DNA of 64,000 bases from Steroidobacter gossypii. Its GTDB lineage: Bacteria; Pseudomonadota; Gammaproteobacteria; Steroidobacterales; Steroidobacteraceae. Below, one piece after another: positions 33,931 through 53,212 of this stretch. The stretch is taken from NCBI RefSeq assembly GCF_016801985.1, contig NZ_JAEVLS010000001.1:1240001-1304000 (forward strand), in the 5' to 3' direction. A program made the translations under genes and the position numbers. Below the pieces are notes generated by a model. The model worked only from the letters and a program-made list of their open reading frames with translations. It had not been told where the DNA came from and did no database searches. The stretch's first letter is position 1, and each line of letters opens with the position of its first letter.

Positions 33931-35010
33931 TTACCGCGCCCGAAATCCGTGATCCCGAGCGAACACAGCCGCTTGTGTGCGCGAGTGAACATCCAGCTTT
34001 TCGAATACGCGAGAGACGACGTTGCGAACGGTCTTCTCGCTGATGTGCAAGCTCGCGGCGATCTCGGCGTTGCTGCGGCCGGCGGCTAAACCTCCCAGAA
34101 CTTCACGTTCGCGAGATGACAAAGCGCCGAAGCGGTCAATTTCACGCACATTTGCGGCGCCTCTGCCGCAAAACTCCAGGACGATCTCCTTGAATCGCGC
34201 CCACGCCGGCTCATCCGCAAGCAGCACGTGATTGCGCGAATCCAGCTGCACGAACTCCGCATTCGGGATCTCAGCGGCCAGCTCGCGACTGGCACTCAAT
34301 GGCGTGACCTGATCATCCACGGCATGGATGACCAACGTCGGCACCTTGACCTGAGGCAGTAGCTCGCGCACATCGATCTCCGACCGAGCCAACATCAGAT
34401 GCGCCGCAACCTCCGGCGTCGTCGTGCGCCGGCACAGCTCGTTGAACCATTCGAGCTGCTGAGGGCTGGCGCCAGGGGCGAAGCGAGAGGTGAAGACTTG
34501 CCGGAACGCCACCGTGTCGGTGCCCCAGCCAAAACGAATCAGTTCGACGATAGCCTGGAAGCGACGCAGACCCTGCGGGTCGCCGCGCTTGGCCCAGCCC
34601 GTGGCGTAGCCGCCGTAGAGAATCAGATGAGAAACACGCTCCGGGTGCCGCACGGCATAGGCGATGCAAGTCGCGGCACCTTGCGAGATACCAAGCAGTG
34701 CCACCGGCCCATCACATTCGGCCGCGCCGATCACGGACTCCAAATCATCCGTCCACCGCGGCAAGGAAACTTCAGGCACCTCCCACTGCGACATGCCACA
34801 ACCGCGCTCGTCGTAACGAACGAAACGGAAACGCTCGGCGAAAAACTCGATCCAGTGCCGCCACACCGGGCTCTCGAGGTCATATTGCAGGTGCGTTAGC
34901 CAGTTCGCGGCCTTGACCATGGGCGGCCCGCTGCCGATCGACGCCCATGCCAGCCGCACCCCGTCGCTGGCCCGGACGTATCGAATGGTCTGACGGATCG
35001 TGTGCCCCAT
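33931..35010 (-). CDS. Alpha/beta hydrolase fused to a LuxR-type DNA-binding domain
   Basis: 359 residues from the ATG at 35010; ATGs at 35043 and a GTG at 35091 are alternatives and no start has a strong ribosome site. Residues about 1-280 are an alpha/beta hydrolase with the nucleophile elbow GISQG (Ser109), a candidate acid in HAVDDQVTP and the catalytic His in DSRNHVLLADEP. The last 65 residues are a GerE/LuxR helix-turn-helix (LSSREREVLGGLAAGRSNAE, then HISEKTVRNVVSRVFEKL). This makes it a regulator that may sense or hydrolyse a small ester or lactone. The divergent MddA-like gene is a possible target. Confidence 0.88.
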   Translation of the reverse strand: MGHTIRQTIRYVRASDGVRLAWASIGSGPPMVKAANWLTHLQYDLESPVWRHWIEFFAERFRFVRYDERGCGMSQWEVPEVSLPRWTDDLESVIGAAECDGPVALLGISQGAATCIAYAVRHPERVSHLILYGGYATGWAKRGDPQGLRRFQAIVELIRFGWGTDTVAFRQVFTSRFAPGASPQQLEWFNELCRRTTTPEVAAHLMLARSEIDVRELLPQVKVPTLVIHAVDDQVTPLSASRELAAEIPNAEFVQLDSRNHVLLADEPAWARFKEIVLEFCGRGAANVREIDRFGALSSREREVLGGLAAGRSNAEIAASLHISEKTVRNVVSRVFEKLDVHSRTQAAVFARDHGFRAR

Positions 35011-35142
35011 GCGCCCGCCGAAGTCGGGACGAATGTCCCGCATCGGCACCCGATCATGCCTGCGTTCGGGACATCCTTCATCTATTTCCACGAGACCGCC
35101 GGGCGGATGCTATCCGGGTTCCACACCACGTCCGGAGCTCCC

Positions 35143-42398: not shown

Positions 42399-45143
42399 TC
42401 ACTCCGCGGCGTCGGGTGAGCTGTCCAGCAGGCGCTGTTCGCGAGACAGGCGGACGGCGTCGCGACGGGAGTTGACGCCGAGCTTTTCGTAAAGGGATTT
42501 GAGGTGATACTTCACCGTGTTCGGTGAGATCTTGAGCAGGCGGGCGATTTCTTTGTTGGTGTAGCCCTGGTCCAAGTGACGCAGGGCGGAAAGCTCCGGG
42601 CCGCTGAGCAGGGTGGAGTCGCGGTTCTGGGCGGAGTGGCGTTCCAAAGACTTGCGCAGGCGGCGAAGAAAGGTCTCGCGGAAGCGATCGGTGTGGCGCA
42701 AGGTCGCGTGACGGGAGTCGATGGTGGCGGACAGGCTGATGAATCGCCAGCAGTCGAGGAATGGCCCGATGAAGCCTTGGAACATCGACATGCTGACCGC
42801 TTCATCGAAGCGCACGATGGCCTGCTCGGGCTGTTTCGCCAGGCGATGCGCATGCGCTGCCAGAATGCAAAGCGTAATGAGCAATCGTCCGTGTCCGTGC
42901 TGACGAGCCCAGCGTTCAGTAGTCTCGATCTCGGTGAGCGCTGCCTGGTGGTCGCCGCCGCACAGATGAACCTTGGCGAGGCACACCGACGCCGCCAGCG
43001 CGATGTGACGATAGGGTGGCATCTCTTCACTCATGGCAGCGGCCAACTGACGCATGCCAATCTTTTCAGCATGTTCACCAGCCGACTCGTGCCGACCCGC
43101 ATGAATCAGCGACTCGACTTCGTAGATGTCAGCTAGCAGCTGCAGCTGAGTGAGATGTCGACCCGCGGCGACCGTACGCATCCGCGCGATGATGCGATCG
43201 GCCTCGGATGCGCTCTTGCCGAAGGCGACGCGAATGGCAGTACAAAAGCCCGAAGCATAGATCTCGAACCACCCGTCCGACTGCTCCATGTGAGGCAGCG
43301 CCCAATCGAGCAGCGACATGGCCTCCTCGAGGGCGTCACGTTCGAACAGCGCCTCCGCTTGATACACGGCGCAATTGGCCGCGAGATCGGAGCGCGGCCC
43401 GTAAGCCCGCTGAATATCTGCAGCCGCCTCTTTGAGCACCACCTGGGCTTCATCCAGGCGTCCCTGGGCAAGTCGAATCCTAGCTTCGAGCAAGCGAGCA
43501 AACATTTCGCCATAGAGCGAGCCGAGCGCCCGATGATGCTCACGCGCGCGCCGCGTAGGTTCAAGAGCGCGCTCGAGCCAGCCGCAGTCACAATACTTCT
43601 CGCCCAGCGATTCGCAAACATTGGCGAGCATCAGGTGATCGTTGGACGGCAAGCTCAGGATCAGCGCTTCCTTGGCCAACAAATCTTCCAGCCGCACCGG
43701 CGTGTTCTCATATTCCGAGAGCACCTCGCCGACCAGGTTCACCTCAGTCCAAAGATCGGCGGGCAAGCTGGCGCGTTCCACAGAATTTCGGAAGCCATCG
43801 TAGCTGGCGCGCGCCGCGGTCATCTGGCCTTGTTTGATCAAACGATACACGTTCGCCAGCTGCAGTCGTGGAAAGCGCGCAATGGTGGCATTAGAGACGT
43901 GCGAAAGCCCCGCGATCAGCGTCTCCATCCTGCCTTCGGGAATCATGCGCCACCCGCCGGCTTCATCCAGCACGGTAGCGAGGAATTCCTCATCCGCCGC
44001 GCCGATGGCATGGCCGACCGCCTCGGCGACCTGGCCGTGCGAGCCAAACCAGATGGCCGCTTTCCGATGCAGCTGACGAAACAACGCCGGGTCGCGACGC
44101 GCGAGGCGATCGCGAAGGATCTGCGCGAACAACTGGTGATAGCGATAGGTCAGATGTTGAGCATCGAGCGGCAACAGAAACAGATTCTGCTTCTCCAGCT
44201 GCTCGAGCATGAACTGACCGTCCTCCCGATCGCACAGCAGATTCACCAGATCGCCATTCAACCGCTCCAGGATGGCGGTGCGCGTGATGATGTTCTCCAC
44301 GTCCGGCGGCAGACTGGCCAGCACCTGTTCGGACAGATAACTGGCGAGCTCCCAGGCCGGGCCAGAGAAATTCGCGATCAGCTCGGCACGGTCGCAGCCT
44401 TTGCGTAGTGAAAGCGCAGTCATCTGAAGCGCAATAGGCCAGCCCTCAGTGCGCTTCAGCAGCCGGGCGATGTCGTCCTCGGCCAGCGGAGCAGAGGCGC
44501 CGCGATTCAACATCACTTGCGCTTCATCGAGCGTGAATTTCAGATCGTCGGCGCCGAGCTCCACCAGGTCCTCGTTGGCGGCGAGCACGGCCTGGCCGAG
44601 CTTCGGATAGTCACGCGAGGCGATCACGATGTGCAGCCGCTCGGGAGCGAGCTTGATGAGCTGGCGTACGAAGTGACAGACGGCCTCGCTCTCGGCACGG
44701 TGAAAGTCATCGAGGATCAGGACGGTGTGACGATCTGCATGCGACAGCCGATTCACGATGGCCGACAGCGCCGCGCGTGTCGGCATGCTCTCGCCGCTGC
44801 TTCCACCGCCGATCGCCGCCATCAGATACTCGGCGAAACGGGCGGCATCGGATTCTTCTTCTTCCAAGGTCAGCCAGGCGGCCTCGATGCCTCGCTCCGT
44901 GAGCGCCCGATGCCATTGCGCGAGCAGACTGGTTTTGCCGTATCCGGCCGGAGCGTGCAACAGGGTGAGCCGCCGCGTGATCACATCGTCCAGCCGCTGC
45001 AACAGCAACTCGCGCGGCACATGCTGGCTCGGGCGAGCCGAAGGCGCGATCTTGGTGAGGATGGGATCACCGAGGCTGTTCACGGATCCAATCGTAAGTT
45101 CCGGGGAGGCCGTCGAGCATAGCAAATCAACAGCGCTACCCAT
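42399..45143 (-). CDS. MalT-like large ATP-binding LuxR-family regulator (LAL)
   Basis: About 914 residues from the ATG at 45143; ATG 45164 and GTG 45083 are possible alternatives and none has a clear ribosome site. An N-terminal STAND-type NTPase has Walker A HAPAGYGKTS and Walker B VLILDDFH. A long helical TPR-like sensor region follows, then a C-terminal LuxR helix-turn-helix (LRHLDQGYTNKEIARLL, SPNTVKYHLKSLYEKLGV). Such regulators bind an inducer in the TPR region and activate nearby catabolic genes. It is divergent, with 86 bp between, from the hyuA-like operon, its likely target. Confidence 0.92.
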   Translation of the reverse strand: MGSAVDLLCSTASPELTIGSVNSLGDPILTKIAPSARPSQHVPRELLLQRLDDVITRRLTLLHAPAGYGKTSLLAQWHRALTERGIEAAWLTLEEEESDAARFAEYLMAAIGGGSSGESMPTRAALSAIVNRLSHADRHTVLILDDFHRAESEAVCHFVRQLIKLAPERLHIVIASRDYPKLGQAVLAANEDLVELGADDLKFTLDEAQVMLNRGASAPLAEDDIARLLKRTEGWPIALQMTALSLRKGCDRAELIANFSGPAWELASYLSEQVLASLPPDVENIITRTAILERLNGDLVNLLCDREDGQFMLEQLEKQNLFLLPLDAQHLTYRYHQLFAQILRDRLARRDPALFRQLHRKAAIWFGSHGQVAEAVGHAIGAADEEFLATVLDEAGGWRMIPEGRMETLIAGLSHVSNATIARFPRLQLANVYRLIKQGQMTAARASYDGFRNSVERASLPADLWTEVNLVGEVLSEYENTPVRLEDLLAKEALILSLPSNDHLMLANVCESLGEKYCDCGWLERALEPTRRAREHHRALGSLYGEMFARLLEARIRLAQGRLDEAQVVLKEAAADIQRAYGPRSDLAANCAVYQAEALFERDALEEAMSLLDWALPHMEQSDGWFEIYASGFCTAIRVAFGKSASEADRIIARMRTVAAGRHLTQLQLLADIYEVESLIHAGRHESAGEHAEKIGMRQLAAAMSEEMPPYRHIALAASVCLAKVHLCGGDHQAALTEIETTERWARQHGHGRLLITLCILAAHAHRLAKQPEQAIVRFDEAVSMSMFQGFIGPFLDCWRFISLSATIDSRHATLRHTDRFRETFLRRLRKSLERHSAQNRDSTLLSGPELSALRHLDQGYTNKEIARLLKISPNTVKYHLKSLYEKLGVNSRRDAVRLSREQRLLDSSPDAAE

Positions 45144-45229
45144 CGTCGCGGCCTGACTGCCCATCGCCGGGGCACGCGTTACCCGTCTTGGCGTCGGAAC
45201 CGAGGTTCCGGGCACGTAGACTGCCCACC

Positions 45230-46789
45230 ATGCGATTGGGTATCGATGTGGGTGGGACAAACACGGACGCCGTGCTGGTTGCCGGCCGAACCGTGTTGGC
45301 GTCGGCAAAGCGGCCGACCACCGATGACGTGAGCAGCGGCATCGTCAACGCGACTCGAGCGGTGCTCGACGCCGCCGGGGTCAGCCCGTGGGCCGTCAGC
45401 AGCGTGATGATCGGCACCACCCACTTTGTGAATGCGCTGGTCGAGCGCAAAGGGCTGCTGGGGGTCGGCGTGTTGCGCCTGGCAGGAGCGGCGGGCGAAG
45501 CGCTGCCGCCGATGAGCGGTTGGCCCGACGACCTGAAACGGTGCATCGGCGCGACCAGCTTCCAACTTCCTGGCGGCTACGAGTTCGACGGTCAGGAGAA
45601 CACGGCCTTCAACGAGGATGCCGTGCGCGACGCCGCGCGAGAGCTGCGTCGCAAGGGGTTGCAGTCCGTTGCGATCTCATGTGTGTTCGCGCCGATCAAT
45701 CGATCGATGGAGCAACGAGCCGCGGCGCTGGTGAAAGAAGTCGCCCCGGACATGTCGATCACCGTCTCGAGTGCGCTAGGTCGCATTGGATTTCTGGAGC
45801 GCGAGAACGCCACGATCATGAACGCGTCGCTGTCGAAGATGGCGCGTCACGTGATGGCCTCGTTCACATCCGCGTTCGGCGAGCTCGGCATTCACGCGCC
45901 CTTGTACGTCAGTCAGAACGACGGCACGCTGATCTCGGCGGACTATGCCGCACAGTATCCCGTGCTAACGCTGGGTTCCGGGCCCACCAACAGCATGCGT
46001 GGCGCGGCGTTCCTCACTGGGATCCAAGATGCCATCGTGATGGACGTGGGTGGTACGACCACCGATATCGGCGCACTGGTGAACGGCTTCCCGCGCGAGT
46101 CTTCGATTGCCGTGAACATCGGCGGTGTGCGCACCAACTTTCGCATGCCCGATATTCTTTCCATCGGTCTGGGCGGCGGCACTCGCATCCATCTGGACGC
46201 CGACGGCCAACTGATCGACATCGGTCCAGACTCGGTCGGCTATCGATTGTCCCAGGAAGCCTATATGTTCGGCGGCTCGACCCTCACCGCCAGTGACATC
46301 GCGGTGAAGGCCGGTCAGGCGAACTTCGGCAATCCGGCCAGGGTGCCGGATTTGCGGCCCGGCGTGATGGAAAAAATCCTCGCGGGTTTCCGCAACATTT
46401 TCGAAGACGGCATCGATCGCATGAAGACCGCGGCCGCGGATGTTCCAGTCGTGCTGGTCGGCGGCGGCAGCGTTCTGGTGCCGAACGAATTGAAGGGCGC
46501 AGCGCGCGTGCTTCGTCCCGAGCATGCAGCAGTCGCGAATGCCGTCGGCGCCGCGATTGCCCAAATCGGCGCAGAAGTGGATCGCATCGTGGCGTACGAC
46601 AACGAAGATCGAGCGACGGCATTGCAAGACATCGAGCGAGAAGCGGCCGAACGCGCCGTCGCCGCCGGCGCCGATGCCAGCACTGTGCGGCTGGTCGATG
46701 TGGAAGAAACATTTCTTTCGTATATGCCGGGCAACACGGTGCAGATCCGCGCCAAAGTCGTGGGCGATCTGGCGGTGAGCGCCGCATGA
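45230..46789 (+). CDS. HyuA-like hydantoinase/oxoprolinase family protein
   Basis: 519 residues from the ATG at 45230. An actin-like ATPase fold with two phosphate motifs: N-terminal GIDVGGTNTDAVL and internal MDVGGTTTDIGAL; IGLGGGTRIHLD and GGGSVLVPNEL also match. The family couples ATP hydrolysis to opening of five-membered cyclic amides (hydantoins, 5-oxoproline). It is shorter than full HyuA and no HyuB follows; a DUF917 gene overlapping by 4 bp (ATGA) takes that place, a pairing known in many genomes. First gene of the putative catabolic operon. Confidence 0.9.
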   Translation: MRLGIDVGGTNTDAVLVAGRTVLASAKRPTTDDVSSGIVNATRAVLDAAGVSPWAVSSVMIGTTHFVNALVERKGLLGVGVLRLAGAAGEALPPMSGWPDDLKRCIGATSFQLPGGYEFDGQENTAFNEDAVRDAARELRRKGLQSVAISCVFAPINRSMEQRAAALVKEVAPDMSITVSSALGRIGFLERENATIMNASLSKMARHVMASFTSAFGELGIHAPLYVSQNDGTLISADYAAQYPVLTLGSGPTNSMRGAAFLTGIQDAIVMDVGGTTTDIGALVNGFPRESSIAVNIGGVRTNFRMPDILSIGLGGGTRIHLDADGQLIDIGPDSVGYRLSQEAYMFGGSTLTASDIAVKAGQANFGNPARVPDLRPGVMEKILAGFRNIFEDGIDRMKTAAADVPVVLVGGGSVLVPNELKGAARVLRPEHAAVANAVGAAIAQIGAEVDRIVAYDNEDRATALQDIEREAAERAVAAGADASTVRLVDVEETFLSYMPGNTVQIRAKVVGDLAVSAA

Positions 46790-47898
46790 GCCACACGAAA
46801 AGAACGTTGACGCTCGAAGATGTCGCCGATCTCGCCCGCGGTTGCGCCTTCCTCGGCTCCGGTGGCGGCGGCGATCCTCACACGGCATTCATGGAGATCG
46901 AAGCAGCGCTCGGCGAAGGCGGCGCCATCGAACTGATCGAGCTGGAGTCACTGCCTGACGACGCCTTCGTCGCGCCCTGCGGCTGGATCGGGGCGCCCAC
47001 CATCTCGGCCGAGAAACTGCCGAGCGGACGCGAAGCGCTGCAAGGCCTGCGCAAGCTGGAAGAAATCACCAACCGGCGCGTCGACGCCGTGTTCCCAGTG
47101 GAAATCGGTGGCAGCAACGGCCTCGCGGCATTGTTGTTGGCCTTGCGCTCCGGCCTGCCGGTGGTGGACTGCGATGGCATGGGGCGCGCCTTCCCCGAAT
47201 CGCAAATGGTGATCTTCAACATTCGCGGTCAGCAGGCGTCGCCCGCCATTCTCACCGACGACAAGGGCAACTGCGTCGTGATCGAGACTGTCGATAACGT
47301 CAGCGAAGAGCGATTGGCGCGCGCTGCGGCCGTGACGCTGGGCGGTTCGTGCCATCTCATCGAGTACTGCGCTTCGGCGCGAGAAATGAAAGCCAACGCG
47401 CTTCGAGGCACCATCTCCGATGCGCTTCGCATCGGTCGCGGCATTCGTGCCGCCCGTGAAAACGGGCGCGATCCGTTCCATGGCTTGTTCGAGGCGCTGC
47501 GCGCGTCGCCCCATTTCGACCAGGCCGGCGTGCTGTTCGACGGCAAGATCGTCGATTTGCAACGCGAGACGCGCAATGGCTTCTCGGTGGGGCGGGCGGT
47601 GATCGATGCCTTCGGCGGCGGCCAGCGTTTGGAAGTCGAGTTCAAGAACGAGAATCTGATCGCTCGCCTGGACGGGCAAGTGCGGGCGCTGGTCCCCGAC
47701 ATCATCAGCATTCTCGACCGCGAAACGGCCGAGACCATCGTGACCGAGTGTCTGAAATACGGTCAGCGGGTCAAAGTCGTCGGCGCCAGCGCGCCTCGCG
47801 CCTTGCGATCCGCCGAGTCCCTGGCGGTGCTCGGCCCCGACGCCTTCAAACTGCCCGGACCGTATCGCTCGATCGCCGAGCTCAATGGCTGGAAATAA
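46786..47898 (+). CDS. DUF917 / S-methyl thiohydantoin desulfurase family protein
   Basis: 370 residues. The N terminus TLEDVADLARGCAFLGSGGGGDPH is the family hallmark, followed by VEIGGSNGLAALL, DCDGMGRAFPESQM and a C-terminal domain from about residue 250. Pfam has, as I recall, renamed this family S-methyl thiohydantoin desulfurase. The start codon overlaps the stop of the HyuA-like gene, so the two are made together and may act as partners. The true substrate is not shown by the sequence. Confidence 0.85.
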   Translation: MSHTKRTLTLEDVADLARGCAFLGSGGGGDPHTAFMEIEAALGEGGAIELIELESLPDDAFVAPCGWIGAPTISAEKLPSGREALQGLRKLEEITNRRVDAVFPVEIGGSNGLAALLLALRSGLPVVDCDGMGRAFPESQMVIFNIRGQQASPAILTDDKGNCVVIETVDNVSEERLARAAAVTLGGSCHLIEYCASAREMKANALRGTISDALRIGRGIRAARENGRDPFHGLFEALRASPHFDQAGVLFDGKIVDLQRETRNGFSVGRAVIDAFGGGQRLEVEFKNENLIARLDGQVRALVPDIISILDRETAETIVTECLKYGQRVKVVGASAPRALRSAESLAVLGPDAFKLPGPYRSIAELNGWK

Positions 47899-47913
47899 CG
47901 TCCGGAAATAAAC

Positions 47914-49164
47914 ATGTCCAGCACGGCCGTCGAATCGAAGACAGAACAGTTCGCCAATGAGCCCGTGCCGGAAAGCGAGACCGTCGACGGCTGGCGCGTC
48001 GCGTTGATTCTCACAGGGTTTGCCATCTCGCTGCCGAGCTTCTTGAGCAGCGCTCAGATCGCGAGTGCGCTCGGCTTGCGAGACGCCTTTGTCGTTTCGC
48101 TGCTGGCCGGAGCGTTGTTGTGTGCGATGGGCTGCCTCACCGCGGTGGTCAGCGTGCGCACGCGACTGACGACCTACCTGCTCGTGCAACGCTCGTTTGG
48201 ACGCAGCGGCGCGGCATTGGTGAACATCGCGATCGCATTGGTGCACTTCGGCTGGTTCGGTGTGAACGCTGCGTTCTTTGGCAACGCCATGGTGGCCGGG
48301 ACGCAAGAAGTGCTCGGCGTGACCGGACCGTTCCCGGCATTCGTCGTGATCGGCGCTCTGTTGATGGCCATCACCACCATCTATGGTTTCCGCGCACTCG
48401 ACCGACTCGCGTTGGTCGCCGTGCCGATTCTTGCACTGATTCTGGGCGCGGTCGTGGTCATGGCTGTGCAGCAGTACGGCATGGTTGTCGCGCCCGACCC
48501 GACGCCGCCCGAACCGATGAGCTTCGGCATTGCGCTGTCGGCCCTGATCGGCGGCAACATGCTCACCGTGGCTGCGATGCCGGATCTCACACGTTACATC
48601 CGCTCCTCGAGGCAATCGGTGCTCGGCATGGTGCTGTCGTTTCCAGTGGCGATCCCGTTGCTGACCCTGGCGGCCGCCATTCCGGTGCTCGCGACCGGCG
48701 AAATAGATATCATGCGACTGATCATCGGCTTCGGCCTGGGCGTGCCGGCGCTGCTGGTGCTGATTCTTTCCACCTGGACCATCAACTCGGCCAATCTCTA
48801 TTCCGCCAGCCTGAGCCTCACGGCGACGTTCCCGGCCGTGGCGCAATGGAAGTTCACTCTGGTCGCGGGTGCGCTGGGTGCATTGATCGCGGTCGCGGGC
48901 ATCCTCGATGCGTTCGTTTCGTTCTTGTTGTTGCTGGGCGCGATCATCCCGCCGATAGCGGCGATCTACGTGATCGACGCGTTTCGCTCCAACAGCACTC
49001 AGGCGCCGGTGCATTGGCCCGCCGTCGTGACATGGGCGGTGTCCGCAGGAATTGCACTGCTCGCCAACTCAGGTTATTTCACGCTGACCACGGTGCCCGC
49101 ACTCGACGCGACGCTGGCCGCGTCGCTGGTCTACGGTGTGTGGTCGCGCGCTGGAAGGGTATGA
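47914..49164 (+). CDS. NCS1-type (CodB-like) permease
   Basis: 416 residues with about eleven or twelve hydrophobic helices in an APC-like fold. VDGWRVALILTGFAISLPSF, GWFGVNAAFFGNAM and LTRYIRSSRQSVLG fit cytosine/purine/hydantoin permeases of the NCS1 family. It should import a small nucleobase- or hydantoin-like compound with Na+ or H+. It lies 15 bp after the DUF917 gene, and its cargo is presumably the substrate of the two preceding proteins. Confidence 0.9.
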   Translation: MSSTAVESKTEQFANEPVPESETVDGWRVALILTGFAISLPSFLSSAQIASALGLRDAFVVSLLAGALLCAMGCLTAVVSVRTRLTTYLLVQRSFGRSGAALVNIAIALVHFGWFGVNAAFFGNAMVAGTQEVLGVTGPFPAFVVIGALLMAITTIYGFRALDRLALVAVPILALILGAVVVMAVQQYGMVVAPDPTPPEPMSFGIALSALIGGNMLTVAAMPDLTRYIRSSRQSVLGMVLSFPVAIPLLTLAAAIPVLATGEIDIMRLIIGFGLGVPALLVLILSTWTINSANLYSASLSLTATFPAVAQWKFTLVAGALGALIAVAGILDAFVSFLLLLGAIIPPIAAIYVIDAFRSNSTQAPVHWPAVVTWAVSAGIALLANSGYFTLTTVPALDATLAASLVYGVWSRAGRV

Positions 49165-49284
49165 GCGTCCCACGCGCGGGTAGTTCGCTCCGCGCGATGG
49201 GTAGTGGACTAGCCACCGCTCAAGCCCCGCCATAGCTTGCTTCGAACGCTGACGCAGATAGATCAGCCCATGGGGATTCGAACG

Positions 49285-51393
49285 ATGAACAAACTTTCAG
49301 TGGCCGTTGCCTGCACTCTGGCGCTCGCTTCGGCGGCGCGAGCCCAAGAGAGTGGTGGCGAGGGCGGTACTCTCGAAGAAGTCACAGTGCTGGCCGACCG
49401 CGCCGGGGCGGCGACCAAAACCGACACCCTGCTGGTGGAGATTCCGCAATCCATCAGTGTCGTGACCGCCGAACAGATCATGGAGCGTGGCGCGACGTCC
49501 TACCAGGAGGTGTTTCGCTACTCCGCCGGCGTGGCTACCGAGCTCTCCGGTGGCGATACCCGCTCGGACTATTTCGCGGCGCGTGGCTTCGCGCTGAAGC
49601 AATTCCTGGATGGCCTGAACAAGACGCCCAAGGGTCTGTATGGCTCGACTCAGGAAACGTTCACTCTCGAGCGCGCCGAAGTGCTGCGCGGCCCGTCGGC
49701 AGTGCTCTACGGCGCGGGCAGCTCGGGCGGCTTGCTGAACGCAGTGAGCAAACGTCCGCAATGGGAATTCGGCGGAGAGATCGGTCTGCAAGCCGGCAAC
49801 TGGGATCGTAAACAGCTGCAGGTGGATCTCACCGGGCCGCTGGGCGAGGACTTCGCCGGTCGCTTCGTCGGCGTGCTTCGCGACGGCGATCTGATGTGGG
49901 AAGGACAGGCGAACGACAAGTACGTCGTGATGCCCTCGCTCGCGTGGAAGCCGGGCGAGCAGACCGATATCACCCTGATCGGGCTGTATCAGAAGGAAGA
50001 CATGGGCACGCAGACCTATCTGCCCATGTCCAAGACGCTGCAGGCCAATGCCGACAATCCCAAGATCCCCATCGACTTCTTCGTCGGCGAGCCGGACTTC
50101 AATCACATGGATACCGAGCAGGCGTCGGTCACGCTGCTGGTGAACCATCGCTTCAACGAGCTGGTCGCGGTGAGCAGCAACACCCGCTATCTGAATCAGA
50201 CGGTGGACTACGGCGAGGTGTATCCGACCTTCAACTTCGGCGTCGATACGTTCATCGACCCGGAGCGGACCACGCTGTCGCGCGCGTTCTACTTGCTGGA
50301 CGACTCGTACACCATCGTCAATTCCGACAATCACGCGCAGTTCGACTTCGACACCGGCCCGGTGTCGCACAAGGTGCTGGTCGGCGTGGACTACACGTTG
50401 TTCGAACAGGATCGTCGCGAAGGCTACTCGTGCGTGGTTTTCTACCCTGGCTGCTTCGAAGCGATGACGATTCCGCTGAACGTCTACAACCCCGTCTACG
50501 GGCAGCCGTTCAACTATGGCTATAGCAACGCGTTCGACAGTCGCAGCACGCAGCTGGGCTTCTATCTGCAGGATCAGATGAAACTCGCCGACCGTGTTTC
50601 GTTCGTGTTCGGTGCGCGTCGCGACCGCGCCACGTCCGAAGCCACGTTGAGCCCGAAGGAGACGGTGAATGCGACCACGTTCAAGTTCGGCGTGATCGCC
50701 GAGGTGTTGCCGGGCGTCTCGCCGTTCGCGAGCTACTCGGAGTCGTTCACGCCCATCTTCGGCGGCGACTTTTATGGCAACGCCTACAAGCCGCAGCAAG
50801 GCGAGCAGTACGAAGCCGGCATCAAATGGCAGCCGTTCTCGAACAGCTTGATCACCGCCACTTACTTCGATATCGAGGACAGCAACTTCCTCACCAGCGA
50901 TCCCAGCAACCTGCAGAACTTCATCCAAAGCGGCGTGATCGGCTCCAAGGGCGTCGAACTGGAGGCGCAGGTCAATCTCGCGATGGGCTTGAGCGTGAAC
51001 GCCGCCTGGAGCTACACCAAAGCCGAAGTGCTCGAAGGCACCTCGTCGCATCCCGCCGGCGATCGCATCGAGGATCTGCCGAATCATCTGGCCTCGCTGT
51101 GGCTCAGTCAGATGCTCTACATCAACAACGATCTGACCATGCGTCTGGGCGCGGGCGTGCGGCGCGTCGGCGACAAGCTCGATTACTACCAGATCCAGAA
51201 GACTCCGGCGGTCACGCTGGTGGACGCCAGCGTCGAGGCTACTTACAAGGACTGGAGCCTGCAGATCAATGCGAACAACGTGGCCGACAAGGAGTACTAC
51301 GCCACTTGCGCCGCATGGGCGACGCCGTTCGACGGCATGTGCACGCCGGGCCAGACGCGCAGCATCCTCGGCACCGTGACTCGGAAGTTCTGA
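49285..51393 (+). CDS. TonB-dependent outer-membrane receptor
   Basis: 702 residues from the ATG at 49285, with GGGGA 11 nt before it. The signal peptide is cleaved after ARA (about residue 20); a TonB-box-like EEVTVLA follows, then a plug domain (PQSISVVTAEQIMERG, ERAEVLRGPSAVLYG, GSSGGLLNAVSKRP) and a barrel ending in VTRKF. The overall sequence resembles the siderophore-receptor subgroup. In this operon it more likely brings in the organic substrate of the permease and hydrolases, but iron chelate uptake cannot be excluded. Confidence 0.93.
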   Translation: MNKLSVAVACTLALASAARAQESGGEGGTLEEVTVLADRAGAATKTDTLLVEIPQSISVVTAEQIMERGATSYQEVFRYSAGVATELSGGDTRSDYFAARGFALKQFLDGLNKTPKGLYGSTQETFTLERAEVLRGPSAVLYGAGSSGGLLNAVSKRPQWEFGGEIGLQAGNWDRKQLQVDLTGPLGEDFAGRFVGVLRDGDLMWEGQANDKYVVMPSLAWKPGEQTDITLIGLYQKEDMGTQTYLPMSKTLQANADNPKIPIDFFVGEPDFNHMDTEQASVTLLVNHRFNELVAVSSNTRYLNQTVDYGEVYPTFNFGVDTFIDPERTTLSRAFYLLDDSYTIVNSDNHAQFDFDTGPVSHKVLVGVDYTLFEQDRREGYSCVVFYPGCFEAMTIPLNVYNPVYGQPFNYGYSNAFDSRSTQLGFYLQDQMKLADRVSFVFGARRDRATSEATLSPKETVNATTFKFGVIAEVLPGVSPFASYSESFTPIFGGDFYGNAYKPQQGEQYEAGIKWQPFSNSLITATYFDIEDSNFLTSDPSNLQNFIQSGVIGSKGVELEAQVNLAMGLSVNAAWSYTKAEVLEGTSSHPAGDRIEDLPNHLASLWLSQMLYINNDLTMRLGAGVRRVGDKLDYYQIQKTPAVTLVDASVEATYKDWSLQINANNVADKEYYATCAAWATPFDGMCTPGQTRSILGTVTRKF

Positions 51394-51412
51394 TCTTTCG
51401 GTGGGAAGTTTG

Positions 51413-53212
51413 ATGAAGTCAAAGAACATCGGCGAGCGTCAATCCGGCGCTCGCTTCTCCGGTCGGGCCTCGGCGCGGGTGTTGGTTCTCACGATCGCGG
51501 CGCTCGTGACCGCGTGCGCGAAACAGGAGCCGGCGGCCGAGCCAACTGCGGAGTTGGTGTTCAAGAATGGCAACATCTACACCGTCGATGCCGGGCAACC
51601 CACAGCATCTTCGATCGCAGTTCGCGCCGGCAAGATCGTTGCGCTCGGCGCGGACGGCGACACTGCGGGATTGATCGGTCCGCAAACCAAAGTGGTCGAT
51701 CTGCAAGGCCGGTTCGTGCTGCCGGCATTTCACGATGCGCACGCGCATCCGGTGTGGGGCGGCCTCGGTCAAAGTCAGTGCCCGCTGCACGAAGGCAACT
51801 CCATCGCCGACTATCAGAAGAAGATCGCCGAGTGCGCGGCGGAGCAGCCCGGTTCGGGATGGCTGGTGGGTGTGGGCTGGAAGGACGGTTTGTTTGTTCC
51901 GGAAGGCACGCCCGACAAGAAGCTGCTGGATGCGGTGGTGTCCGATCGCCCGGCGGCATTCACGTCGGTGGGTGGCCACAGCATCTGGGTGAACTCGAAG
52001 GGACTGGAAGCGGCGGGGATCACGCGCGCAACGCCGGATCCCCCCAACGGTCGCATCGATCGTTACAAAAATGGCGAACCCATGGGCTCGTTTCAGGAAG
52101 CCGCCGTCGAGTTGATCCTCGCAAAGCTGCCGCCGCCTTCCGATCAGGCGCGCGAGGATGGTCTGCTTTACGCGCGTGAGTATTTCAACAGCATTGGCAT
52201 CGTCGGTTGGCACGATGCGTTGGTGCCGATCACCAGCGAAGAGCCCGGGCAGGCCATTCCGCCCGGCGTTCCGCAGACGTACGCCAGTCTGGCCAGCAAG
52301 GGCGAGCTCAAAGGTCACGTGCGCCTGGCGCTGGGTTGGGACAAGAAACGCGGCGTCGAACAGATTCCAGACCTGGTCGCAGCCGCGCAAAAGCTGGCCG
52401 AAGCGGGCGTCGAAGCCAGGTCGGTGAAGTTTTTGTTGGACGGCGTTCCGGCGCAGCGCACGGCGGCGCTCATCGAGCCTTATTCAGACATGCCGGGCTT
52501 CACGGGCGACCTGCACATGGAGCCGGCGCTGCTCGAAGACGCGGTGACTCGTCTGGACGCCGAAGGTTTCCAAGTTCACATTCATGCCATCGGCGATCGC
52601 GCCGTGCGTACTGCGCTCGATGCGTACGCCAAAGCGCGCGAGCGTAACGGCAACAAAGATCATCGGCATCTGCTGTCGCACGTCAATTTGATTTCGACGG
52701 CGGATCTGCCGAGGTTTCGTGAGCTGGGCGTGGTGGTGGTGTTCCAGCCGCTGTGGGCCTGCCTGGATGAATACATGGTCATGGTTGGCAGACGCGTCGG
52801 GCAGGAGCGGCTCGATCGCACCTATCCGACGGCTTCTTTGCTGAAGGCCGGCGGCCGGGTGGCGTATGGTTCCGATTGGCCGGTCGCCTCCGCCAATCCC
52901 TTCGAAGGCATCGAAGTGGCCCTCTCGCGTCGTTTCCCCGGTGCGACCGAGGGCGACCGCCTGGCGCCCGGCGAAGCCATCGAACTCGCTCGCGCCATCG
53001 AGAACTACACGCTGCATTCGGCCTACGCCTCGCACCTCGACGATCGCAGCGGCTCGCTGGTGGTGGGCAAGAGCGCCGACCTGGTGGTGCTCGACCGCGA
53101 CCTGTTCAAGATCCCGGTGCACGAAATCTCCAAGACCAAGGTGCTGCTGACGTTGTTCGCCGGCGAAGCGGTCCATGGCGATTTCGCTGCTGTAAGCGCC
53201 GCGAGCGAGTGA
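51413..53212 (+). CDS. YtcJ-like amidohydrolase, predicted lipoprotein
   Basis: 599 residues from the ATG at 51413 with a GGGAAG site. A signal with a lipobox (LVTAC, Cys35) predicts a lipid-anchored periplasmic or outer-membrane location. The amidohydrolase_3 domain has the metal motif HDAHAHP, GGHSIWVNS, HIHAIGDRA, a SHVNLI strand and the Asp in GSDWPV. Such enzymes hydrolyse amides or deaminate ring compounds. It is the last gene of the operon, 19 bp after the receptor, so hydrolysis may happen just inside the outer membrane before import. Confidence 0.9.
   Translation: MKSKNIGERQSGARFSGRASARVLVLTIAALVTACAKQEPAAEPTAELVFKNGNIYTVDAGQPTASSIAVRAGKIVALGADGDTAGLIGPQTKVVDLQGRFVLPAFHDAHAHPVWGGLGQSQCPLHEGNSIADYQKKIAECAAEQPGSGWLVGVGWKDGLFVPEGTPDKKLLDAVVSDRPAAFTSVGGHSIWVNSKGLEAAGITRATPDPPNGRIDRYKNGEPMGSFQEAAVELILAKLPPPSDQAREDGLLYAREYFNSIGIVGWHDALVPITSEEPGQAIPPGVPQTYASLASKGELKGHVRLALGWDKKRGVEQIPDLVAAAQKLAEAGVEARSVKFLLDGVPAQRTAALIEPYSDMPGFTGDLHMEPALLEDAVTRLDAEGFQVHIHAIGDRAVRTALDAYAKARERNGNKDHRHLLSHVNLISTADLPRFRELGVVVVFQPLWACLDEYMVMVGRRVGQERLDRTYPTASLLKAGGRVAYGSDWPVASANPFEGIEVALSRRFPGATEGDRLAPGEAIELARAIENYTLHSAYASHLDDRSGSLVVGKSADLVVLDRDLFKIPVHEISKTKVLLTLFAGEAVHGDFAAVSAASE

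Follow-up and report, generated by a model that had tools for sequence, protein, structure and literature searches.

A short HyuA and its DUF917 partner in a candidate MalT-type catabolic regulon of Steroidobacter gossypii

Relation to described systems

MalT operators consist of multiple direct-repeat boxes, the last of which lies near the -35 region, and fungi carry HyuA-DUF917 fusions. The regulator of the Steroidobacter gossypii locus described here has the ATPase-TPR-GerE architecture in common with MalT, but scores below the MalT equivalog cutoff. Its candidate boxes resemble those of MalT as multiple direct repeats, the last near -35, but read YTACCCRYY at 20-22 bp, and its proposed regulon is an amide-catabolic island. 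The HyuA of the locus shares with HyuA/HyuB, OplAB and CapAB the ASKHA HyuA fold, both ATP phosphate motifs, linked transport genes and a predicted activation of a lactam by ATP, CapA being the phosphorylating subunit of caprolactamase (PMC8453981). It differs in being short (approximately 520 versus 690 aa) and without the GxxPGP motif, and a DUF917 protein accompanies it, whereas HyuA/HyuB and CapAB have a metal-binding HyuB or CapB partner. The (S-methyl-)thiohydantoin desulfurases (NF058532, NF058529) share the Pfam two-domain family of this DUF917, which is set apart by sub-cutoff scores, by its HyuA, NCS1 and TonB linkage and by a neighbourhood in which no ergothioneine-pathway enzyme was found.

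In a published survey, DUF917 was enriched together with hydantoin racemases near cyclodipeptide oxidases (PMC11055893). The likeness to these clusters lies in DUF917 beside hydantoin/Asp-Glu racemases and peptide-type transporters, whereas the present locus adds a TonB receptor and a lipoprotein amidohydrolase and no cyclodipeptide oxidase was seen in it. The pYJN5-3 locus of Paenarthrobacter sp. YJN-5 (L083, 44486-61585) resembles it in having, in a stretch of 8 kb, a cytosine permease, an Amidohydro_3 protein (37% identical), a HyuA N-terminal-domain protein and DUF917, but is Gram-positive, has no TonB gene, encodes a DUF917 of only 27% identity and carries a canonical HyuA/HyuB pair and a racemase. 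A polysaccharide deacetylase is also encoded there, with recombinase and transposase genes nearby, and no function was described for this locus in the literature searched. Likewise, no description of a HyuA/DUF917/NCS1/TonB system was found in the open-access literature searched.

Gene content and genomic setting

The DNA analysed (the window) is a stretch of 64,000 nt, positions 1,240,001-1,304,000 of NZ_JAEVLS010000001.1, from the 7.1-Mb genome of the soil bacterium S. gossypii (GCF_016801985.1). Judged by its DUF917 gene, this genome is closest to Steroidobacter and Peristeroidobacter. ORF and profile searches confirmed six genes at 42399-53212, for LuxR, HyuA, DUF917, NCS1, TonB and amidohydrolase proteins, in the families named by the preliminary description and with start codons slightly corrected. 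The spacings it gave from hyuA onwards also hold (4-bp overlap, 15 bp, 120 bp), except that the last gap, between the TonB and amidohydrolase genes, is 18 and not 19 bp.

The regulator gene (42399..45083, minus strand) encodes a MalT-like, large ATP-binding LuxR protein of approximately 894 aa with AAA, TPR_MalT and GerE domains. The N-terminal ATPase, TPR_MalT region and C-terminal GerE domain give it the LAL architecture, and its score against the MalT equivalog is 337 versus a cutoff of 537 bits. A 969-aa reading frame from TTG 45308 overlaps hyuA; the start was placed at GTG 45083 on the conservation of GTGAACAGCCTCGGTGAT in four species, this GTG, at which the homologous part begins, being conserved in four species as well. 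Elsewhere in the window (33931-35091, minus strand) lies a gene for a 386-aa protein with an alpha/beta hydrolase domain and a C-terminal LuxR-type GerE domain, possibly a hydrolase-like sensor fused to a DNA-binding domain.

The NCS1-type permease (47914..49164, plus strand; 416 aa) matches Transp_cyt_pur (PF02133) at 63.2 bits versus a cutoff of 23.5. Its nearest solved relative is the cytosine permease 7qoa, but it falls below the curated cytosine-permease and ncs1 cutoffs (175 versus 326 and 84.3 versus 353.1 bits). The TonB-dependent receptor (49285..51393, plus strand; ATG start), with Plug and TonB barrel domains, exceeds the cutoff of the siderophore-receptor subfamily TIGR01783 (318.9 versus 223.5 bits), a subfamily that does not imply a ligand. 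The last gene (51412..53212, plus strand; ATG start) encodes a YtcJ-like Amidohydro_3 lipoprotein (PF07969, 306.7 bits) with the lipobox VTAC, the Cys of which is residue 39 of the GTG-initiated reading. Its metal ligands HxH, Lys, His, His and Asp (H114, H116, K343, H395, H427, D492) are intact and invariant in 22 sequences. A lipobox or signal peptide is present in most close orthologues, making hydrolysis outside the inner membrane likely; the starts in L034 and L082 are uncertain, and Gram-positive homologues have neither feature.

The cluster is flanked by glmS and slyD, which lie near each other in five congeners without the cluster. In one of these (G011), the interval between them is approximately 2.5 kb (L104 15491-17974) and contains a 54-aa LuxR fragment, 91% identical, together with short DNA matches to the cluster, a scar left by cluster loss.

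The short HyuA and DUF917

The short HyuA (45230..46789, plus strand; ATG start; 519 aa), predicted to be an ASKHA-type lactam kinase, matches Hydant_A_N and Hydantoinase_A (PF05378, PF01968). Taking the roles of the ATP-binding motifs from PMC8453981, the phosphate-1 (DxGGTxTD) and phosphate-2 (D(V/I)GGT) motifs are present, as DVGGTNTD and DVGGTTTD, and both are kept in 45/45 short HyuA proteins. The adenosine-binding motif GxxPGP, present in three long HyuA controls, is absent from the window protein and replaced by a (S)VG/LG...FGG form in all 45 short ones; judged from sequence, this loss could mean that HyuA does not use ATP in the normal way. By predicted fold (pLDDT 91.6), its nearest matches are N-methylhydantoinase 9h03, acetone/acetophenone carboxylases and caprolactamase CapA. 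HyuB (PF02538) was not found among the six locus proteins, and the two PF02538 genes of the host genome are both on another contig. The membership of this HyuA in a short subfamily, and the absence of both the adenosine motif and a HyuB partner, had gone unnoticed in the preliminary description.

DUF917 (46786..47898, plus strand; 370 aa) has the N and C domains of the S-Me-THD-like family, as Pfam at present calls DUF917 (PF06032 and PF20906; 193 and 183 bits). A Foldseek search with its predicted fold (pLDDT 93.5) returned CV_3147 (2o3i) as the sole confident match, and VIA-align superposed the model on 2o3i with a Z of 41.2 and an rmsd of 2.2 over 340 residues; no other entry had a Z of at least 5. 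The candidate that DUF917 is a disguised HyuB was rejected, since PF02538 gives no match and the fold matches 2o3i alone convincingly, although a more distant kinship is possible. In the alignment of HyuA-linked DUF917 proteins there is no invariant Cys or His, and hence no obvious metal or thiol site; the invariant polar residues are E76, E106, N111, D130, R134, E175, R179, N288, E289 and D305.

Among 148 related genomes, all 28 short HyuA matches (at least 44% identity) are linked to DUF917, 27 of them directly, with a TonB gene intervening in the remaining one (G100). None of the 11 canonical long HyuA matches in these genomes (35-38% identity) stands beside DUF917, and a group of unpaired DUF917 proteins (approximately 27-34% identity) has no HyuA neighbour in the stretches examined. 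The two proteins are thus observed as a pair, in which HyuA most likely phosphorylates a lactam that DUF917 would then open. A Peristeroidobacter soli-like genome has four DUF917 genes, two of which (L050, G003:C3:1162900-1182800) flank a single HyuA gene with a reported internal TGA.

A candidate operator at two promoters

Tandem YTACCCRYY boxes, 20-22 bp apart, are found at the hyuA and TonB promoters and form a candidate operator, the strongest piece of new evidence obtained here. In the gap between the regulator gene and hyuA, on the plus strand, box 1 (CTACCCATC, 45136..45144) is followed at 21 bp by box 2 (CTGCCCATC, 45157..45165) and at a further 22 bp by box 3 (TTACCCGTC, 45179..45187). 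The second operator (49154..49204, minus strand) spans the 3' end of the NCS1 gene and the NCS1-TonB gap, and has three boxes at 21-bp spacing, ATACCCTTC at 49154, CTACCCGCG at 49175 and CTACCCATC at 49196. A putative -10 element, TAGACT (45217..45222, plus strand), conserved in four species, lies 7 nt before the hyuA ATG, so that the hyuA mRNA may be leaderless. In several loci a -10-like element follows the start of box 3 at approximately 38-40 bp, a layout that would suit an activator site overlapping -35.

The box motif and spacing were picked after inspection of the sequence, and leave-one-out and reversed-pattern controls were applied. In the full 7.1 Mb a degenerate two-box pattern has three matches, two overlapping ones at hyuA and one at the TonB gene; its reversed form has one. 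With a matrix trained only on the hyuA promoters of other loci, the tested locus being left out, hyuA promoters scored above 16 bits in 17/17 loci. There were 22 further matches versus 1.15 expected from dinucleotide shuffles, most of them at TonB, aldehyde dehydrogenase or HSL promoters and a few without an assigned target. Thirteen loci have a TonB gene near the cluster, and in every one of them, rearranged loci included, an array lies upstream of it. In genome-wide searches for TTACCC-N14-16-TTACCC, Sphingomonas QA11 and BK235 had the pattern at hyuA and TonB and nowhere else, and Niveispirillum irakense had it at these two and at HSL alone; three further genomes had additional sites with partly assigned targets. 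A looser pattern also matches some unrelated sites in other Steroidobacteraceae. That so rare an operator is confined to the hyuA and TonB promoters in the host and in both Sphingomonas genomes argues for one regulon. This candidate operator, missed by the preliminary description, is a newly recognised DNA tag, and its occurrence at both promoters speaks, at the level of DNA sequence, against the scenario that would have undone the earlier proposal, namely a receptor answering to another signal than hyuA and DUF917.

Related repeats occur outside the cluster. In the paralogous LuxR-HyuA-DUF917-TonB loci L049 (7824) and L051 (8111), a similar CTACCCGCC repeat with 23-bp spacing lies just upstream of HyuA, a hint that the operator code predates the full cluster. 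In Parvularculaceae, an operator-like array stands right at the beginning of L039 13398-16472, a gene that encodes 1024 aa comprising PD40 beta-propeller repeats and an amidohydrolase domain and that probably belongs to the regulon.

Conservation and additional genes in relatives

GTDB genomes yielded 18 loci on scanning, to which one on a Novosphingobium sp. RL4 plasmid was added. Of these 19, 17 group with the window in a single clade of the DUF917 tree (support 100/97) that includes Steroidobacteraceae, Alteromonadaceae, Sphingomonadaceae, Azospirillaceae, Hyphomonadaceae, Parvularculaceae and Caulobacteraceae. The gene set recurs, partly rearranged, in 17 other loci of two proteobacterial classes, which indicates that the locus is more than chance; its range takes in Steroidobacteraceae, further Gammaproteobacteria and several orders of Alphaproteobacteria. 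A chance neighbourhood was rejected on the strength of conservation and operator. The genes named in the preliminary description do travel together, contrary to the failure it had allowed for, but not in its fixed five-gene order: HyuA and DUF917 are kept together, usually with NCS1, TonB and amidohydrolase genes, and the order otherwise varies. NCS1 is replaceable, as three loci (L034-L036) have none beside DUF917.

The additional genes that recur in relatives encode an aldehyde dehydrogenase and an SDR, for transport an aromatic-acid-type MFS or an ABC-type substrate-binding protein, esterases of two kinds (a secreted PF00756 enzyme and one of HSL type), an amidase-signature enzyme and a CaiB-type CoA-transferase. 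A Henriciella locus (L037) carries nearly all of them, and the window locus none. The closest aldehyde dehydrogenases elsewhere in the host genome are only 38-39% identical and so are probably not orthologues. Since the apparent regulon extends to further genes in relatives, the window locus is a core and not a complete pathway. The cluster is real, conserved and transferable, a catabolic core that probably forms a single regulon and whose HyuA-DUF917 pair is unusual; the earlier terms "self-contained" and "full route" do not hold, given the oxidation, esterase and transport genes that relatives add.

Proposed route and alternatives

On balance, the locus is somewhat more probably than otherwise the core of a substrate-inducible catabolic island, switched by the LuxR protein, in which TonB-dependent import and external trimming precede NCS1 import and ring opening by HyuA and DUF917. 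The MalT-like regulator would bind the tandem TACCC boxes, recognised by comparison of loci, at the hyuA-DUF917-NCS1 and TonB-amidohydrolase promoters and activate both. The TonB receptor would import an N-acylated or esterified compound, which the lipoprotein amidohydrolase, aided in some relatives by the secreted esterase, may trim outside the inner membrane before the NCS1 permease takes up a small cyclic amide core. In the cytoplasm, the short HyuA would phosphorylate the ring lactam oxygen with ATP, and DUF917, in the position held by HyuB in classical hydantoinases, would open the ring. In several relatives, the SDR and aldehyde dehydrogenase, both absent from the host locus, could oxidise the released alcohol or acid parts. 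Of the single-compound route proposed earlier, the receptor, the secreted metal amidohydrolase, the NCS1 permease, the ATPase-type ring-activating subunit and their co-occurrence stand, and its completeness and the desulfuration step do not.

The imported core is most likely hydantoin- or diketopiperazine-like. HyuA-DUF917 pairs lie beside Asp/Glu racemases and ABC transporters in Aureimonas and Aminobacter, beside an NCS1-type permease in Planococcus, and with an NCS1 permease, an Amidohydro_3 homologue and canonical HyuA/HyuB in Paenarthrobacter. It is the racemase-linked loci, the survey cited above (PMC11055893) and the NCS1 permease that favour such a core, and the esterase, SDR, aldehyde dehydrogenase and MFS genes of relatives suggest an attached acyl or alcohol part.

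In an alternative reading, DUF917 is itself a desulfurase acting on a (S-methyl-)thiohydantoin, which would leave HyuA to activate or open the hydantoin so formed. Both curated desulfurase models do align over most of the length of DUF917, a member of the Pfam S-Me-THD-like family, but its scores are far below their cutoffs (97.3 versus 450 and 86.2 versus 440 bits), on which ground an ergothioneine/thiohydantoin pathway was rejected. In addition, the HyuA-linked DUF917 proteins have no conserved Cys, and neither the six window proteins nor the scanned neighbour genes include any other named ergothioneine-pathway family, as the preliminary description had already remarked of these enzymes. Desulfuration is accordingly unlikely. 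Similarly improbable is the scavenging of an ester- or hydroxamate-containing siderophore-like molecule, such as a fungal diketopiperazine siderophore. In that case a FhuA/FoxA-like receptor would take the molecule up, the secreted esterase and the amidohydrolase would cleave it, HyuA-DUF917 would open the diketopiperazine, and SDR, ALDH and CoA-transferase would oxidise the acyl part. The receptor score above the siderophore-receptor cutoff, the CaiB-type CoA-transferase and the weak enterochelin-esterase similarity of the PF00756 esterase of relatives are consistent with such a substrate. However, TIGR01783 is a broad subfamily in these bacteria, NCS1 cargoes are small heterocycles, and the locus contains no ferric reductase or siderophore ABC system. 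Neither promoter has a Fur-like box (best matches 10 and 9 of 19 positions), and iron (Fur) control of the receptor was rejected on this ground.

It is very improbable that HyuA-DUF917-NCS1 and TonB-amidohydrolase are two unrelated neighbouring units. Alphaproteobacterial loci do have the two units apart or inverted, and distant paralogous loci lack the amidohydrolase, but the genome-rare operator stands at both promoters in 13/13 loci, even where the units are rearranged. It is quite possible, if tentative, that ATP-dependent cyclic-amide hydrolases have a second architecture, so far unrecognised, in which the short HyuA works with DUF917, a protein of unrelated fold, in place of HyuB. The pair would here be built into a regulon fed through TonB, controlled by a MalT-type protein and marked by an operator code of its own, and directed at a natural product that is not yet known to serve as a nutrient.

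Significance

Genes for HyuA and DUF917 occur widely among bacteria, and their annotation often says no more than "hydantoinase" or "DUF917". The HyuA-DUF917 linkage, the lost motif and the genome-rare common operator turn this vague annotation into a defined pathway proposal, and the candidate operator offers a direct route to the inducer and hence to the substrate.
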